The notes under the pieces: generated by a model | What the model was told of the DNA's origin: nothing | The model's database searches: none | The model's input: only the letters and a program-made list of their open reading frames with translations | NCBI GenBank assembly: GCA_013152385.1 | Contig: JAADGL010000033.1 | Location: 1 to 64,000, forward strand | Direction of reading: 5' to 3' | From: Acidobacteriota bacterium | GTDB taxonomy: Bacteria; Acidobacteriota; Holophagae; Thermotomaculales; Thermotomaculaceae | DNA: 64,000 nucleotides | Shown: positions 37,891 to 49,756 of the stretch, piece after piece | Layout: each line of letters opens with the position of its first letter | Position numbering within the stretch: the first letter of the stretch is position 1 | Translations under genes and position numbers: made by a program

Positions 37891-37923
37891 GAATAACGAC
37901 TAAACATTCCGGGGGTGCATTGT

Positions 37924-40900
37924 ATGCGTCGTATTTTGATTTTTTTGTCATTTATATTTGTATGCGGGTTTTTAATGGCCGCGAACGGGTCCGGCCCGAT
38001 TTCCGTTAAACAGGATGGCGGGGACCTGTTGCTGACATTCAATCTTCCCGCCGTTCAATTCAGCAAAGTTCAAGCCGGCAATCGCTTGTTTCAGCGGATT
38101 GTCGTGAAGGGTGCCGGTGTGACATCCGTTGTCGGACACGCGGAGCTTCCGCTCTTCACTGCAAATATCGCATTGCCGGGCAAGGCAGCGCCGAAAATAA
38201 GCATTGTTGAGTCGCATCATCGGGAATTTACGCTGAAAACTCCGATTTATCCGGTTCAGCTGCCCTGGCCCAAAAACAGGCCCCTTTCCGAACGCCCCTT
38301 TATAATAGATTCCGGTTGGTATGCTTCTTCACATCCTGCGCAAAAGCAGGTTTCTGAAACGCCCCCTTTTATTATTCGGGGAACCGCCGGCACGACCGTT
38401 GTGATTTACCCTTTCAATTATGACCCTGCCGGAGGCAGTCTTGTTGTCACGGATCATCTGGTACTCCGCTTACATTTCCCGGATGCATTCAAGGGGTTCC
38501 GCGAACCGGCCGCTCCGGCATTCCGGGCATTGTTTCACCGGATTTTTGCTAATCATGAAGAATTGGAAAATTCCAAATCCGGCTTGATGAAAGCGGGAAG
38601 CGGAACCAAGGATGTGCTTCGCAAATATCTGATTATTACCGCCCCGGAATTTGAAAGCGGTCTTGCGGACTTTGTTGTTCACAAGCAGTCCTTTGGTTAT
38701 GCCGTGACAGTTGTAACCACTGACGTGACCGGAACAACCACCTCCTCAATTAAAAACTATCTGCAGGGAATGTATGATAATGCGGATACCCGGCCGGAAT
38801 TTGTCCTTCTCGTCGGGGATACGAATAAAATTCCCGCCTGGACCAGCACACAGGCGAATAATCCCCGCAATGATTTGTATTATTCCACTCTGGAAGGTAA
38901 TGATTATTTCCCTGATGTGTTTCTCGGTCGGTTTTCCGTTTCAACTGCCGCAGAACTTCAGAATGTTATTGCCAAAACAATTTCCACCGAATCCAATCTT
39001 TCCGGTTTGCCGCAAAATGTTCTTTTTATTGCTTCTGCAGAAAATTCGGATATTACCGAGGGGACGCACAATTATGTGGATTCCCACTATTTTTCCCCTG
39101 CGGGATATACGGAATACAAACAATACATGGCTTCGGGGGCAAATGCCTCGTCCGTGACGCCGATTTTAAACAACGGTGTCCGTTTTGTGGTTTATTCCGG
39201 ACACGGCGGCCCGACGGAATGGTGGCAGAATCAGCCTTCTGCCCACGCGTTTTATACCCAGGGAGATGTGCGGGCGCTGACCAATACAATTTATCCGTTT
39301 GTTTTTACCTTTGCGTGCCAGACCGGAGAGTATGAGGTTCCTGAATGTTTTGCCGAGACCTGGATCCGTGATGAAAAAGCCGGAACCACATATTGGGGGT
39401 CTTCGGTTTATTCTTACTGGGATGAAGATGATGTTTTGGAGAAAGGTGTCTTTAAGGCGGCATTCGATGATGGCCTGGATCAGATATGCCCCATGTTCAA
39501 TGCCGGGAAAATGGCACTTTATGACCACTATGCCGGCGGCGGCAGTACCAAGCGGTATTTTGAACAGTACAATTTGATGGGGGACCCTTCGGTGTACACC
39601 AAAGGAACGCTTCCCAACAGCTCAATGGGGCGGATTTTACTGGATAAATCCAGGGTTCCCTGTAACGGCCAGGTGACGGTTCAGGTCTGGGACAGCGACA
39701 GAGAAGAGGAATTCTTTGATATTACGGTGGAGAATCCTGCGGATGGGAGCTCCAGAAGTATTGAGCTCTACAAATACAATTCCGGGAAATATGCGGGGCT
39801 GTATCCCTTTAATATACAGGCACTGGATCCCAATGTTTCCGGCAGCGGTACTCTGGTATTTCATTATGACGATGAACATTACGGCGATACCGGCAAAAAA
39901 GATGTAACTGCAACGTTGATACTGGATTGTGACGGGCCGGTATTGATGCACCGGGAGATTAACACCGTGCGGGCCACCAGTGCCGATCTTGTCCTGTTTC
40001 TGGATGAGAAATGTTATGCCGATGTTACGGTTAAATCAGGTGGTACAACTGTTTTCAGTACCAGTGAAAACGGGGTGGATTCCATTGATCTGAATCTTAC
40101 CGGGCTTTCTCCGCAGACCGCTTACACCGCGGATTTGCAATTGACGGATGATGTGGGGAATACGACTACACTCACGGATGTCCCCCTGTTCACGACAGCG
40201 GAGGGAGGGTCGGTTGCGAATTATCCCTGCGATGCGGACAGCGAAGCCAGCCATAGTGCGGTTACCGGAACCGATGTCTGGACGATGACAACAACAAGTG
40301 GTGCCCATTCCGGCGGAAAATGCTGGTTCGGAAAAGATGTCCCCTCAACAACCGACTCATCTCTTAAGGTCGGTCCGGTGTCTTTGCCTTCCGGTGTGAA
40401 TTCGGTTCTTTCTTTCTGGCATTACTACAATATGGAATCGGGCTACGACGGGGGAGTTCTGGAAATCTCCACAGATGACGGTGTCAGTTGGCAGGATCTG
40501 GGAAATGATATTCAAAGCGGTACATACGATACGATGATGAAGGGGGGCCCGCTGGAGGATCAGATGGCCTGGAGCGGAAGCAATGACAGCATGAGTCAGG
40601 TTTTTGTGGATTTGTCGGATTTTTCCGGACAAACCGTGTATTTTCGTTTCCGTCTCTGCTGCGACAGCAGTGTCAGCGAAACCGGCTGGTATGTGGATGA
40701 TATTGCCGTGAATTCCCTTTCTGTTTCACCGCAGTCCCTCACATTTCTGAACCTGAGTTCCGACACTGTTTTGACACTGAATACCGGGGCGGATGCAGCT
40801 GAGGTCGTCCTCACAGCCCGTGATGCTTCGGGAGGAACGCTGGGAAGCAAAACAGTGGATTTGAGTGCGTACAGTGTGTTGAACGGTACGGTTGAACAAA

Positions 40901-42009
40901 TTTTTGATCCGGTGGATGTTTCAAATGTGGCAACGGTTGAAGCGGTTCCGGATGCCTTTGTTGCCGGTTGGCAGATGAATGATTTTGAAGATGCCCGAGG
41001 GCAGATGCGGAACTGGACACCGGCTTTCCGGGGAAAAGCAAGACCCGCCCTTGTGGTTCCCCACGTGGCAAGTGATGTTGTTCACGGTGAATTGTATTGG
41101 AATACCTGGCTTTCGGTGATGAACGGCGGAAGCTCGGCAGAAGATCTTCGTTTTACCTATACCCCGATGTTTTTGCCTTTCACCAGTGATGAGCAGGTGT
41201 CGGCAATGGGCATGGTTCATGTAAATGTCGAAAGTGATATTTTCGGCGGGAATTTTCCGGCGGATGGTGTCGGATTTGCTTCTCTTTCGCTTCCGGATAC
41301 TGCATCCGGAACCCTGGAGGGGGTAAAAGCAATGGAGTCTTTTGACAAAAAAGAAATTGCAAATTCCGCCCAGCTGACACTGGATATGCAGGCGGGGAAA
41401 GAACTTTATGTGGCCCACGTGGACAATTCCGATTACTGGTGGACCGGAATTGCACTGGATAACCTGGCCAGCGATTCGTCCGCCTCTGTTTCCGTTTCCG
41501 GTTACACGAAGAACGGTGTACTGTCTGCTCAAAAGGATTACACGGTGGATCCGGGCGGAAAACTGATTTTTGTGACAAAAACGGAATTTTCCGCCGATGT
41601 GGCATGGTTTAAGGTGGACTCCACTTTGCCTTTAATCGGGTATGAACTTTTCGGCACCACCGATAACAAGCTTCTGGCAGGTTTGAATATTCCGACAGCC
41701 GGAGCCAAAGACATCTTTCTGCCCCTTGTGGATGTCGGACTGGCCAATGACTGGTACGGTCTGACCATTGTGAACCCCAACGAGACTTCGGTTGATATTA
41801 CGTTGTATTTTTATCGGAACGGTTCTCTTGCCGGTCAGAATCAACTTTCTCTGAATCCGTTGAGCAAAACAGTCGGGTTGCTGGGAGACTACTTTTCCGG
41901 TGATACCGATTTGATTGAGGTTAAATCTTCCGGAAAAATTGTCGCATTCTGTCTGGAAGGAGATTCCGGAATGAATAGATTGGGCGGTGTGCTGGGAACG
42001 GCAAAGTAG
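37924..42009 (+). CDS. Secreted gingipain-like (peptidase C25) multidomain protease
   Basis: 1361 residues from ATG 37924 (GGGGGTG upstream; GTG 37915 less likely). After a signal peptide (ILIFLSFIFVCGFLMAA) and a propeptide-like region, the C25 domain begins near residue 235 (RKYLIITAPEFE, EFVLLVGDTNKIPAW). The catalytic His427 lies in YSGHGGPTEWW and Cys465 in FTFACQTGEYE. The domain closes with the QYNLMGDPSVYTKG motif. Downstream are beta-sandwich regions, a MAM/immune-inhibitor-like segment (SFWHYYNMESGYDGGVLEIS), and about 370 C-terminal residues containing repeats shared with the beta-helix protein at 11963. It is a cell-surface or secreted cysteine protease; Arg or Lys specificity cannot be called. 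No type IX secretion gene is in the window. Confidence 0.88.
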   Translation: MRRILIFLSFIFVCGFLMAANGSGPISVKQDGGDLLLTFNLPAVQFSKVQAGNRLFQRIVVKGAGVTSVVGHAELPLFTANIALPGKAAPKISIVESHHREFTLKTPIYPVQLPWPKNRPLSERPFIIDSGWYASSHPAQKQVSETPPFIIRGTAGTTVVIYPFNYDPAGGSLVVTDHLVLRLHFPDAFKGFREPAAPAFRALFHRIFANHEELENSKSGLMKAGSGTKDVLRKYLIITAPEFESGLADFVVHKQSFGYAVTVVTTDVTGTTTSSIKNYLQGMYDNADTRPEFVLLVGDTNKIPAWTSTQANNPRNDLYYSTLEGNDYFPDVFLGRFSVSTAAELQNVIAKTISTESNLSGLPQNVLFIASAENSDITEGTHNYVDSHYFSPAGYTEYKQYMASGANASSVTPILNNGVRFVVYSGHGGPTEWWQNQPSAHAFYTQGDVRALTNTIYPFVFTFACQTGEYEVPECFAETWIRDEKAGTTYWGSSVYSYWDEDDVLEKGVFKAAFDDGLDQICPMFNAGKMALYDHYAGGGSTKRYFEQYNLMGDPSVYTKGTLPNSSMGRILLDKSRVPCNGQVTVQVWDSDREEEFFDITVENPADGSSRSIELYKYNSGKYAGLYPFNIQALDPNVSGSGTLVFHYDDEHYGDTGKKDVTATLILDCDGPVLMHREINTVRATSADLVLFLDEKCYADVTVKSGGTTVFSTSENGVDSIDLNLTGLSPQTAYTADLQLTDDVGNTTTLTDVPLFTTAEGGSVANYPCDADSEASHSAVTGTDVWTMTTTSGAHSGGKCWFGKDVPSTTDSSLKVGPVSLPSGVNSVLSFWHYYNMESGYDGGVLEISTDDGVSWQDLGNDIQSGTYDTMMKGGPLEDQMAWSGSNDSMSQVFVDLSDFSGQTVYFRFRLCCDSSVSETGWYVDDIAVNSLSVSPQSLTFLNLSSDTVLTLNTGADAAEVVLTARDASGGTLGSKTVDLSAYSVLNGTVEQIFDPVDVSNVATVEAVPDAFVAGWQMNDFEDARGQMRNWTPAFRGKARPALVVPHVASDVVHGELYWNTWLSVMNGGSSAEDLRFTYTPMFLPFTSDEQVSAMGMVHVNVESDIFGGNFPADGVGFASLSLPDTASGTLEGVKAMESFDKKEIANSAQLTLDMQAGKELYVAHVDNSDYWWTGIALDNLASDSSASVSVSGYTKNGVLSAQKDYTVDPGGKLIFVTKTEFSADVAWFKVDSTLPLIGYELFGTTDNKLLAGLNIPTAGAKDIFLPLVDVGLANDWYGLTIVNPNETSVDITLYFYRNGSLAGQNQLSLNPLSKTVGLLGDYFSGDTDLIEVKSSGKIVAFCLEGDSGMNRLGGVLGTAK

Positions 42010-46452: not shown

Positions 46453-49400
46453 ATGGGAAAAAAAGTTTTGATTGTCAATTACGAGCCGAAACGGCTGGCC
46501 AGATTAAATGAATTGATTGTAGATCTCGGGTACGATGCAATCACTGCCAAAGATGGAATTGAAGCATTGGAGGTGGTGGAAGAGAATGTGCCGGACCTTG
46601 CCATTATTGATCCCATGCTTCCTAAATTGTCCGGTTTTGAAGTTGCCCAGAAACTGACCGCCGGCCATCCCCGTCTTCCTATAATTATGGTCACTTCCGT
46701 GTACAAAGGGAACCGTTACCGTACGGAGGCCATGAGTAAATATGGTGTAAAAGAATATCTGGAAGAGCCTTTTGAAGATGAAACGCTTCAGACACTGGTT
46801 AAAAAATATCTGGATTTTTCGGAAAAGAAAACGATTCCGAAAAAGAAATCATCGGCAAAAAGACGTCTGGAAGAAATTCTTGAAGAAACCATGTCCGGTA
46901 GAGTTCCGACAGGGGGAAAATCCGTTTCCCACAAGGTGAAGCAATCGGATGGAGAAGTACTGACTTCGGCCGATATCTTCAGCGATGTGATAAAAGATGT
47001 AGAAGATGCCCCCGGTACTTTGTCTGCCTCGGAAAAATTAAAGGAAGAAAAAGAGAGAGAGCAGGCGAAACTGGAAAAGAAACTGGAAGAAACCCTCTCG
47101 GGATTAAAGGTTTCTTCTTCCGGTAAAAAGAAAGACAGAAAAAAAGAAGAAGCCGAACCGAAAGCTGCCAGCGCAACCGGGCAGGCCGAACAGAATTCTG
47201 AAGCTCCCTTGGAACCTGCTGTGAGAAAACAGGAGGCGGAAGTAAAATCTGAGATTCCGGAAAGCAAAAAGTCTGAAGCCAGAGGCAAAAAGAAAGGGAA
47301 AAAAGGCGAGGGGATAGAATATGGAAGCTATCTTCTGCTGGAGAAGGTGGCAACCGGAGGAATGGCGGAACTCTTCAAGGCAAAACGCCGGGGGGTTCAG
47401 GGGTTTCAGAAAATTGTTGCAATTAAAAGAATTCTTTCTCATCTTGTGGATAACGAAGAATTTGTAACCATGTTTATTGACGAGGCAAAACTTGCCGCCC
47501 AGTTGAATCACCCGAATATTGCTCAGATTTATGATTTGGGGAAAATTGACAATTCTTTTTACATTGCCATGGAATATGTGGAAGGATATGATCTGCGGAA
47601 CATCCTGAAAGAATGTAAAAAGAAAAAAATCCGGATTCCGGAACCGCTGGTTCTGTTTATTGCAGGCAAAATGCTCAGCGCACTGGATTATGCCCATCGG
47701 AAAAAAGGTCTGGATATGAAGGACCTGAAGATTGTTCATCGGGATATCAGTCCGCAGAATATTTTGATTTCCAAAGGCGGGGATGTGAAGCTGGTTGATT
47801 TCGGCATTGCCAAGGCCGCAACCAAAGCCAGTCAGACCCAGGCCGGTGCCCTGAAAGGGAAACTTCTTTACATGTCTCCGGAACAGGCATATGGAAAACC
47901 CATTGACAACCGTTCCGATCTCTTTTCGCTGGCATCTGTGATTTATGAAGCCATTACCGGTAAAAAATGTTTTCTCTCCGACAGCGAAATCGGAATTCTG
48001 GAAAAAGTCAGAAAGGTGCAGTATACACCGATCAAGGAAGTAAACCCCAATGTGTCGGAAGGAACGGAGAGGCTGATCGCACGTGCATTTTCAAAGAAGA
48101 TTGACGACAGGTTTCAAAGTGCGAAAGAAATGGAGTCGGAGCTTCACCATCTGATGGAATCTCTGCCTTTCGCGGTGAATGAAAGGATCCTTGCTCAGTT
48201 TATTCACGCCCTCTATCAGGGAGATCTGAAAACAATTGAGGACATTTCCGACCGCTACTCATTGAAAGAAGAAGTCCTTGCCGGGAAAGAGCCGGAGGAA
48301 GTGCCTGAAAAGGTTGAAACGGCTGTTCCGGAAGAATCCCCGGAACCGGTTGCCGCTGTTTCAATGGACGATCTTGACGGTGATTCCGACATAAACGCGA
48401 CTATGAAAATGGATAGTGGAACCATGATCATGCCGGATCTTGAAGAAGTGGAAAAACATGAAAATGAGTTCCTGGAACAAATCGGCGGCGGTGGGCGCAG
48501 CAGTAAAACCGGTTTGATTGTCGCGATAGTTCTGGTTGCTGTTATTGTCGTAGCGATTGGTTTTTTTGCGATGAAGCAGAAGAAGGGAACCATCTCCCCG
48601 GTTCCGGTTCAAAAGAAAGTTGAAAAAGTGTCAACTCCGGAAACCACTGTTCCCGGCAATCAGCCTGTCCCCACGCAGGGGGAACCCGAGCAGACCCCTG
48701 CGGCTCAGCCGGCTGCCGTGCCAGGGAAAACCGCAATGGATCTCGGAATTGATAAAGAAAAACTGGTTCAGGAGCTTTTGAAGAAAAAACTGGCCGAAGG
48801 GGAAGCCAAACTTAAAGCCCAGAGAAAAGCAAACAGGGCCAAAGCCAAACCGGTGAAAAAGACAGTCGCAAAAGTCAACCAACCGGTGGCAGTTCAGCAA
48901 AAACCTCAGACTGAAAAAACCGCTGTTCCGACCGCGGCTGTACCCAAGGCTGCGGAGACAAAAGCGGCGGGAACCGGGACTCCTGCTACAACGAAACCGG
49001 CCGCAACTGCTGCTCCCGTTCAAACGGTGTCCGGGCAGCCTGCGGAGACCAAGCCGGTGGGGAAAATCACCGTTCCCGTTGAAACGGTAGCAAAGCGGGT
49101 GGAAACAAAGCCTGTGGAAACAAAGGCTCCTGTTGTAACGAAACCGGTGGAAAAGAAACCTGTCCCACAGCCGATTGTGCCCAGGGTAAAAGAAGGAGAC
49201 CTGGTTCCGTTGATTAAAGGAGAGGTTATTTTCCCGACACCGGTAAAAACAGTTAAGGCGAGAATCTCTCCCCTTGACCGGCGGCGGAATATTCACGGGG
49301 AAGTGCTGGTTCAGGGCCTGATTGATGAAAAAGGAAATGTGGTTCCCGGAGAGGTGCGAGTGTTACGTTCAACTGTAAAAGGCAGGAACAGCTTGGGTAA

Positions 49401-49497
49401 GGCTGCGGTAAAGGCGTTTAAAAAATGGAAATTTACGCCTGCAATGAAAGATGGTGTAAAAGTGAAAGTGTATTTTACACATATGTTTGTGTTTTAA
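46453..49497 (+). CDS. Receiver-Ser/Thr kinase-transmembrane-TonB C-terminal fusion protein
   Basis: 1014 residues. Residues 1-120 form a response-regulator receiver with Asp53 (LAIIDPMLPKLSG), but the acidic pair is N-Y-E and the conserved Lys is Glu (EEPF), so phosphotransfer is doubtful. A Lys/Glu/Ser-rich linker (120-285) precedes an intact Hanks-type kinase (about 294-560): VAIKRIL, HRDISPQNIL, LVDFGIAKA, MSPEQAYG. One membrane helix (about 687-705, LIVAIVLVAVIVVAIGFFAM) is followed by an Ala/Pro/Lys/Thr-rich spacer and a TonB C-terminal fold (about 925-1014, VLVQGLIDEKGNV, AFKKWKFTPA). The kinase would be cytoplasmic and the TonB-like domain periplasmic. Confidence 0.88.
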   Translation: MGKKVLIVNYEPKRLARLNELIVDLGYDAITAKDGIEALEVVEENVPDLAIIDPMLPKLSGFEVAQKLTAGHPRLPIIMVTSVYKGNRYRTEAMSKYGVKEYLEEPFEDETLQTLVKKYLDFSEKKTIPKKKSSAKRRLEEILEETMSGRVPTGGKSVSHKVKQSDGEVLTSADIFSDVIKDVEDAPGTLSASEKLKEEKEREQAKLEKKLEETLSGLKVSSSGKKKDRKKEEAEPKAASATGQAEQNSEAPLEPAVRKQEAEVKSEIPESKKSEARGKKKGKKGEGIEYGSYLLLEKVATGGMAELFKAKRRGVQGFQKIVAIKRILSHLVDNEEFVTMFIDEAKLAAQLNHPNIAQIYDLGKIDNSFYIAMEYVEGYDLRNILKECKKKKIRIPEPLVLFIAGKMLSALDYAHRKKGLDMKDLKIVHRDISPQNILISKGGDVKLVDFGIAKAATKASQTQAGALKGKLLYMSPEQAYGKPIDNRSDLFSLASVIYEAITGKKCFLSDSEIGILEKVRKVQYTPIKEVNPNVSEGTERLIARAFSKKIDDRFQSAKEMESELHHLMESLPFAVNERILAQFIHALYQGDLKTIEDISDRYSLKEEVLAGKEPEEVPEKVETAVPEESPEPVAAVSMDDLDGDSDINATMKMDSGTMIMPDLEEVEKHENEFLEQIGGGGRSSKTGLIVAIVLVAVIVVAIGFFAMKQKKGTISPVPVQKKVEKVSTPETTVPGNQPVPTQGEPEQTPAAQPAAVPGKTAMDLGIDKEKLVQELLKKKLAEGEAKLKAQRKANRAKAKPVKKTVAKVNQPVAVQQKPQTEKTAVPTAAVPKAAETKAAGTGTPATTKPAATAAPVQTVSGQPAETKPVGKITVPVETVAKRVETKPVETKAPVVTKPVEKKPVPQPIVPRVKEGDLVPLIKGEVIFPTPVKTVKARISPLDRRRNIHGEVLVQGLIDEKGNVVPGEVRVLRSTVKGRNSLGKAAVKAFKKWKFTPAMKDGVKVKVYFTHMFVF

Positions 49498-49516: not shown

Positions 49517-49756
49517 ATGGCATTTCTCAGCGAAGATCAGAAAAAGTTTTATGAAGAGACACGGAAACACCTGCGGAACGAAATTGCTGACATTGAGAAC
49601 CAGGTGGAGGAAGAATTGGCCCGGGTAAAGGAAAAGCTGGCGGAACTTCAAAAGGCGAAGAAGGCGGCACTCCAGATGTATGCCGGTGCATGTGACCGTT
49701 TGAATGTGGATAATGATCTTGCGGGGGAAGAAGAGTCGGAAGATATTGAAGAATAA
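49517..49756 (+). CDS. Small coiled-coil protein of unknown function
   Basis: 79 residues, almost entirely one charged helix (residues 5-60; EIADIENQVEEELARVKEKL) with heptad spacing, then an acidic tail (EEESEDIEE). AAGGGGG lies 6 nt before the ATG. It starts 20 nt after the kinase/TonB fusion gene and is probably co-transcribed, so a partner role is possible. No family recognised. Confidence 0.7.
   Translation: MAFLSEDQKKFYEETRKHLRNEIADIENQVEEELARVKEKLAELQKAKKAALQMYAGACDRLNVDNDLAGEEESEDIEE

Follow-up and report, generated by a model that had tools for sequence, protein, structure and literature searches.

A Ser/Thr kinase that bears a receiver domain at one end and, beyond a single transmembrane (TM) helix, a TonB C-terminal domain (TonB_C) at the other is an ancient and unstudied arrangement that recurs across the phylum Acidobacteriota, and its gene is almost always followed by the same tiny partner gene. 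The member characterized here (RKT, 1014 amino acids) is encoded at 46453-49497 on the forward strand of the window, the 64,000-nucleotide stretch of acidobacterial DNA that was analyzed, and the partner gene (CC, 79 amino acids, 49517-49756, same strand) begins 20 bases behind it. The architecture of RKT is well supported; its mechanism we infer. Our preferred reading, to which we assign a probability of roughly 0.45, is that RKT, together with one invariable small partner, acts as a signaling adaptor across the envelope, through which a cytoplasmic kinase is informed of contact with the outer membrane or the wall.

The RKT reading frame is uninterrupted by stops, and Pfam profiles and hydropathy agreed with the original prediction that a receiver, a Ser/Thr kinase, a membrane helix and a TonB C-terminal domain reside in one polypeptide. 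The same fusion was present in seven further genomes from the family to which the window belongs, with 71-48% identity in the aligned part, and an assembly chimera of two genes was ruled out on these grounds. The N-terminus was incomplete in two of these seven relatives, at a contig end in one (G006) and by a broken frame in the other (G004). G004 is the family's sole single-contig genome, and its copy (L049, 6201-9325) was split between the receiver-linker part and the kinase into two open reading frames in different frames, which may represent a pseudogene, a split gene or a sequencing error.

The receiver (residues 5-116; 46465-46800, forward strand, as are all features given below) matched Response_reg with 62.4 bits in Pfam, and the AlphaFold model of the N-terminus had a receiver fold that matched Spo0F and VicR (E about 1e-11, Foldseek). 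The residues read originally from the translation were verified: N9-Y10 replaces the acidic pair, D53 is kept and E105 replaces the Lys. RKT has the fold and the Pfam match of response-regulator receivers and pseudo-receivers but differs in its phosphorylation site, and a full site (acidic pair, phospho-Asp and Lys) was detected in none of the 70 receivers of the relatives set, a tally in which a few loci are one gene fetched twice. The second acidic position was Tyr or Phe in 61 of the 70, the phospho-Asp was retained in just 12, and the Lys was present in 51. Judged by these residues, the receiver is dead across the phylum and the kinases are intact, a pattern that would fit an active kinase carrying the receiver as a conserved docking module.

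The Hanks-type Ser/Thr kinase domain (residues 296-558; 47338-48126) scored 139.4 bits against Pkinase in Pfam, and its VAIK (322-325), HRD (429) and DFG (449) motifs were all intact, the latter two as claimed originally. Among the relatives, the Lys, HRD and DFG were complete by pattern in 61 of 64 kinases, and the remaining three keep the Lys. Like PknB/StkP-type Hanks transmembrane kinases, RKT combines intact catalytic motifs with a TM helix and an extracytoplasmic domain, but it lacks PASTA repeats and has a TonB_C tip and an N-terminal receiver. The PASTA kinase model NF033483 reached 257.5 bits on RKT vs. a cut-off of 450, and the match ended at residue 660.

Receiver and kinase are joined by a charged linker (46867-47103) with LEE(I/T)LxETxSG repeats and a TSADIFSDVI motif (residues 171-180; 46963-46992). 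The consensus of this motif, T-S-x-[DE]-[IL]-F-[GSA]-D-[LVI]-[IL] (TSxDIFGDLI), was found in 42 of the 47 proteins that have both a kinase and a complete N-terminus and in one of 17 kinase-less proteins, compared with a chance level of 0.2 of 67 shuffled linkers. The motif goes with the kinase, not with CC. A role as the CC-binding site was weakened, since 16 of the 17 kinase-less proteins lack the motif and still adjoin CC. Phosphothreonine with an acidic residue at position +3 is a known type of FHA ligand, and the genome from which the window derives has 12 FHA matches, which are candidate phosphothreonine readers. TSxDIFGDLI is a candidate autophosphorylation and docking site.

Hydropathy predicted a single TM helix at about residues 686-708 (TGLIVAIVLVAVIVVAIGFFAMK; 48508-48576), followed directly by a Pro/Ala/Lys/Thr-rich spacer, predicted to be periplasmic (48577-49242), with an EGDLVPL motif at its end in the alignment (49186-49212). 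The TonB_C domain (residues 943-1014; 49279-49494) scored 44.1 bits in Pfam against a cut-off of 24.6, and 49.7 bits in a whole-genome TonB_C search. The AlphaFold model of the C-terminus (mean pLDDT 86.6) had the TonB-like fold that had been proposed and matched solved TonB C-terminal domains, the best match being the FoxA-bound TonB tip (6i97 chain D; E 7.5e-5, TM-score by target 0.82); E. coli TonB (1u07) was matched as well. Hanks kinases commonly bear varied extracytoplasmic domains, and RKT might be an ordinary receptor kinase in which TonB_C is only a convenient extracytoplasmic tip, much like the PASTA or beta-propeller domains of other Hanks kinases, and does not touch the outer membrane. 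The family of the window gene has lost the TonB-type YP motif, which favors such a tip, but most other families keep this motif, the fold is specifically that of a TonB C-terminal domain and the spacer is long enough to cross the periplasm, which makes this explanation very unlikely.

TonB domains are usually regarded as outward energy transducers. RKT shares the C-terminal fold and the Pro-rich spacer with TonB, but its TM helix is internal rather than N-terminal and is preceded by a cytoplasmic signaling part of 680 amino acids. No His was present in any RKT TM helix inspected, whereas the TonBs inspected, including two of the window genome (L141 and L142), carry one in theirs. RKT is thus disfavored as a classical TonB, and the absent His argues against classical ExbBD coupling. 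Together with the loss of the YP motif in the window gene's family, this weakened the ExbBD energy transduction implied by the original prediction. The prediction's other elements fit the data: the fusion itself, the pseudo-receiver and a proposed link from cytoplasmic signaling to an outer-membrane partner.

No exbB or exbD gene lies beside RKT in the window. At seven loci, one in each of seven other families (L187, L190, L191, L193, L239, L240, and L242), the kinase gene and CC are divergent from a yebC-ruvC-exbB-exbD-exbD-tonB-DUF4388-TPR cluster, often with accD-folC downstream, and the window genome has an exbB-exbD-exbD-tonB-DUF4388-TPR copy on another contig (C64; L141, 3270-7784), unlinked to RKT. 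The DUF4388 and TPR genes resemble fixed companions of an Exb-type motor. RKT could accordingly be a motor-coupled output protein, with an ExbB/TolQ-type channel working the TM helix, the tip pulling outer-membrane proteins and the kinase regulating the machine. The divergent clusters and the unlinked copy in the window genome support this arrangement, as does the precedent of GltG described below. We nonetheless consider it rather unlikely, given that the RKT TM helices lack the His, that the adjacent cluster has its own separate TonB and that the cluster is missing from most other RKT contexts. The yebC-ruvC/accD-folC genes common to these surroundings point to old synteny, and the cluster may lie beside RKT and CC either for that reason or because the two are functionally tied to an Exb-type motor.

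The closest published design to RKT is GltG, which is yet not of the same family. GltG (PglI) and GltJ, of the gliding motility system of Myxococcus xanthus, are modular TolA/TonB-like proteins (PMC3169522, PMC5349195). They share with RKT a cytoplasmic signaling domain, a single TM helix, a periplasmic spacer and a C-terminal TonB_C domain. GltG is an FHA-TM-TonB_C protein that contacts AglR in two-hybrid analysis, and AglR is thought to work GltG (PMC3169522, PMC5349195). However, GltG has an FHA domain and no kinase or receiver as listed in these papers and is part of the Agl-Glt machine, whereas RKT has a kinase and a receiver and no FHA domain by Pfam. No glt or agl genes were present at the RKT locus, where the neighbors are leuCD, CC, a methyltransferase gene and an Smr gene. 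Among 195 Myxococcota genomes, none yielded a CC match, and the ten long TonB_C reading frames retrieved from them contained neither a kinase nor a receiver. The absence of a kinase and a receiver, the different neighbors and the lack of CC in the Myxococcota searched place GltG outside the RKT family. Five of the Myxococcota loci (L176, L180, L181, L182, and L183) encode long TonB_C-like proteins without kinase or receiver; several lie behind an apparent signal peptide and are possibly fusions of TonB_C to outer-membrane receptors.

The prevalence of the architecture, left open by the original prediction, proved to be phylum-wide. Dedicated scans covered 396 Acidobacteriota genomes, in which a profile of the TonB_C tip was searched, and the 195 Myxococcota genomes. 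The receiver-kinase-TM-TonB_C architecture occurred in about 20 families across the Acidobacteriota, and an orthologue of the RKT kinase was present in 114 of the 396 genomes (E ≤ 1e-80). Kinase-domain identity outside the window gene's family was typically 51-60% (47% in the most distant case), and kinase paralogues at other loci of these genomes had only about 31-43%. Outside families f1-f3, most reading frames span 890-1300 amino acids. In f2 and f3, which belong to the same class as the window gene's family, the orthologous kinase stops soon after the TM helix and TonB_C is missing. A literature search with partial coverage, most subscription journals lying outside it, found no published kinase-TonB fusion.

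A tree of 63 kinase domains was in line with taxonomy; f1, f2 and f3 each formed one strongly supported clade, and the three clustered at 92 SH-aLRT. The presence of TonB_C required four changes on this tree by a quick method that left several forks open. The simplest reading of these changes is that TonB_C was ancestral and was then lost in f2, in f3 and in two further rows. A gain of TonB_C solely in the window gene's family was ruled out by the same architecture elsewhere and by the kinase tree, which point to loss in the sister families f2 and f3. Given the phylum-wide distribution and the tree, the fusion is old and vertically inherited and no local novelty. Other lineages lost other parts of the protein. 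Aminicenantes-like lineages have a receiver-TM-TonB_C protein without the kinase (L061, L063, L281, and L285-L291), and in family f28 just a disordered N-terminus, the TM helix and TonB_C are present (L275-L278, L284, and L292).

CC was the most constant companion of these proteins. CC and its homologues are coiled-coil-like proteins of about 75 amino acids, and CC belongs to no Pfam or NCBIfam family. CC was detected in 137 of the 396 Acidobacteriota genomes, including 106 of the 114 genomes with the kinase; this co-occurrence (Fisher p 3e-57, a value that ignores relatedness) is read only as very strong. CC lay directly 3' of the kinase gene on the same strand in all 104 same-contig cases and followed it in 43 of 45 contexts inspected. 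At kinase-less loci, the gap from TonB_C to the downstream CC was 33-67 bases in 16 of the 17 listed cases, and in f2 and f3, which lack TonB_C, it still adjoined the membrane-protein gene. Because CC is retained with kinase-less and TonB-less forms, neither kinase output nor outer-membrane contact is indispensable to what CC needs. Three loci of family f49 (L280, L282, and L283) encode CC homologues with no receiver, kinase or TonB_C gene alongside; those in L282 and L283 lie downstream of era-like GTPase genes.

The persistence of CC raises the prospect that RKT acts chiefly as a scaffold or tether: CC and the single-pass protein would organize something at the inner membrane or envelope, and receiver, kinase and TonB_C would be exchangeable accessories. 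CC is indeed kept upon loss of the kinase, upon loss of TonB_C and, in f28, upon joint loss of receiver and kinase. Where the kinase is present, however, its motifs are strictly conserved, as is an identity of about 50-60%, which suggests selection for catalysis, and at a few loci (L280, L282, and L283) CC stands without such a neighboring gene. We regard this explanation as unlikely.

In the preferred adaptor reading, RKT and CC would form a two-gene trans-envelope signaling unit, RKT being a single-pass inner-membrane protein. Its cytoplasmic half would comprise the dead receiver as a docking surface, the linker with its kinase-dependent phospho-motif and the live Hanks kinase. Its periplasmic half would comprise the flexible spacer and the TonB-type end, which may bind an outer-membrane (TonB-box) protein or peptidoglycan; the window genome has six TonB-receptor plug matches, which are possible outer-membrane partners. 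If the periplasmic tip came into contact or under tension, RKT would dimerize or cluster differently, which in turn would switch kinase autophosphorylation and substrate phosphorylation, and the signal would be read out via CC and phosphothreonine-binding (FHA) proteins. What was observed comprises the domains and their folds, the lost receiver site, the intact kinase motifs, inheritance across the phylum, the invariant CC gene and the coupling of motif and kinase; topology, periplasmic ligand, signal direction, CC binding and motif phosphorylation we infer. The persistence of kinase-less (Aminicenantia-like) and TonB-less (f2 and f3) forms with CC counts against the adaptor reading, as does the position of the gene beside exbB-exbD-exbD-tonB in seven families, which may indicate motor coupling instead.

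The coupling of outer-membrane state to cytoplasmic phosphorylation in Gram-negative bacteria is largely an open question, and signaling in Acidobacteriota is little studied. RKT and CC provide a defined two-gene system to ask whether TonB-type contacts carry signals inward too, with the TSxD linker motif, the CC protein and the dead receiver as handles. We tentatively suggest a previously undescribed, phylum-wide acidobacterial system in which a TonB-tipped, dead-receiver kinase with an obligate CC protein might read the state of the outer membrane or of an Exb-type motor and signal inward by phosphorylating its own TSxD motif, with kinase, receiver and TonB tip singly losable and the pair surviving.

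Within the window gene's family, the order leuC-leuD-RKT-CC-methyltransferase-Smr was conserved. The original prediction had pointed to the coiled-coil, methyltransferase and Smr genes as neighbors worth comparing; the first emerged as the phylum-wide partner, and the other two were ruled out as functional partners, their conservation being confined to the family. Upstream in the window (37915-42009, forward strand), a secreted protein of 1364 amino acids resembles a gingipain-type (C25) peptidase by appearance. The window genome also encodes a second TonB_C-tipped membrane protein (L130, contig C14, 2992-4806), which is a pseudokinase-TM-TonB_C protein: its N-terminus resembles a kinase (Pfam, 34 bits) but has neither HRD nor DFG. 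Other families have comparable proteins that also start with a kinase-like part (L128, L135, L140, and L149).
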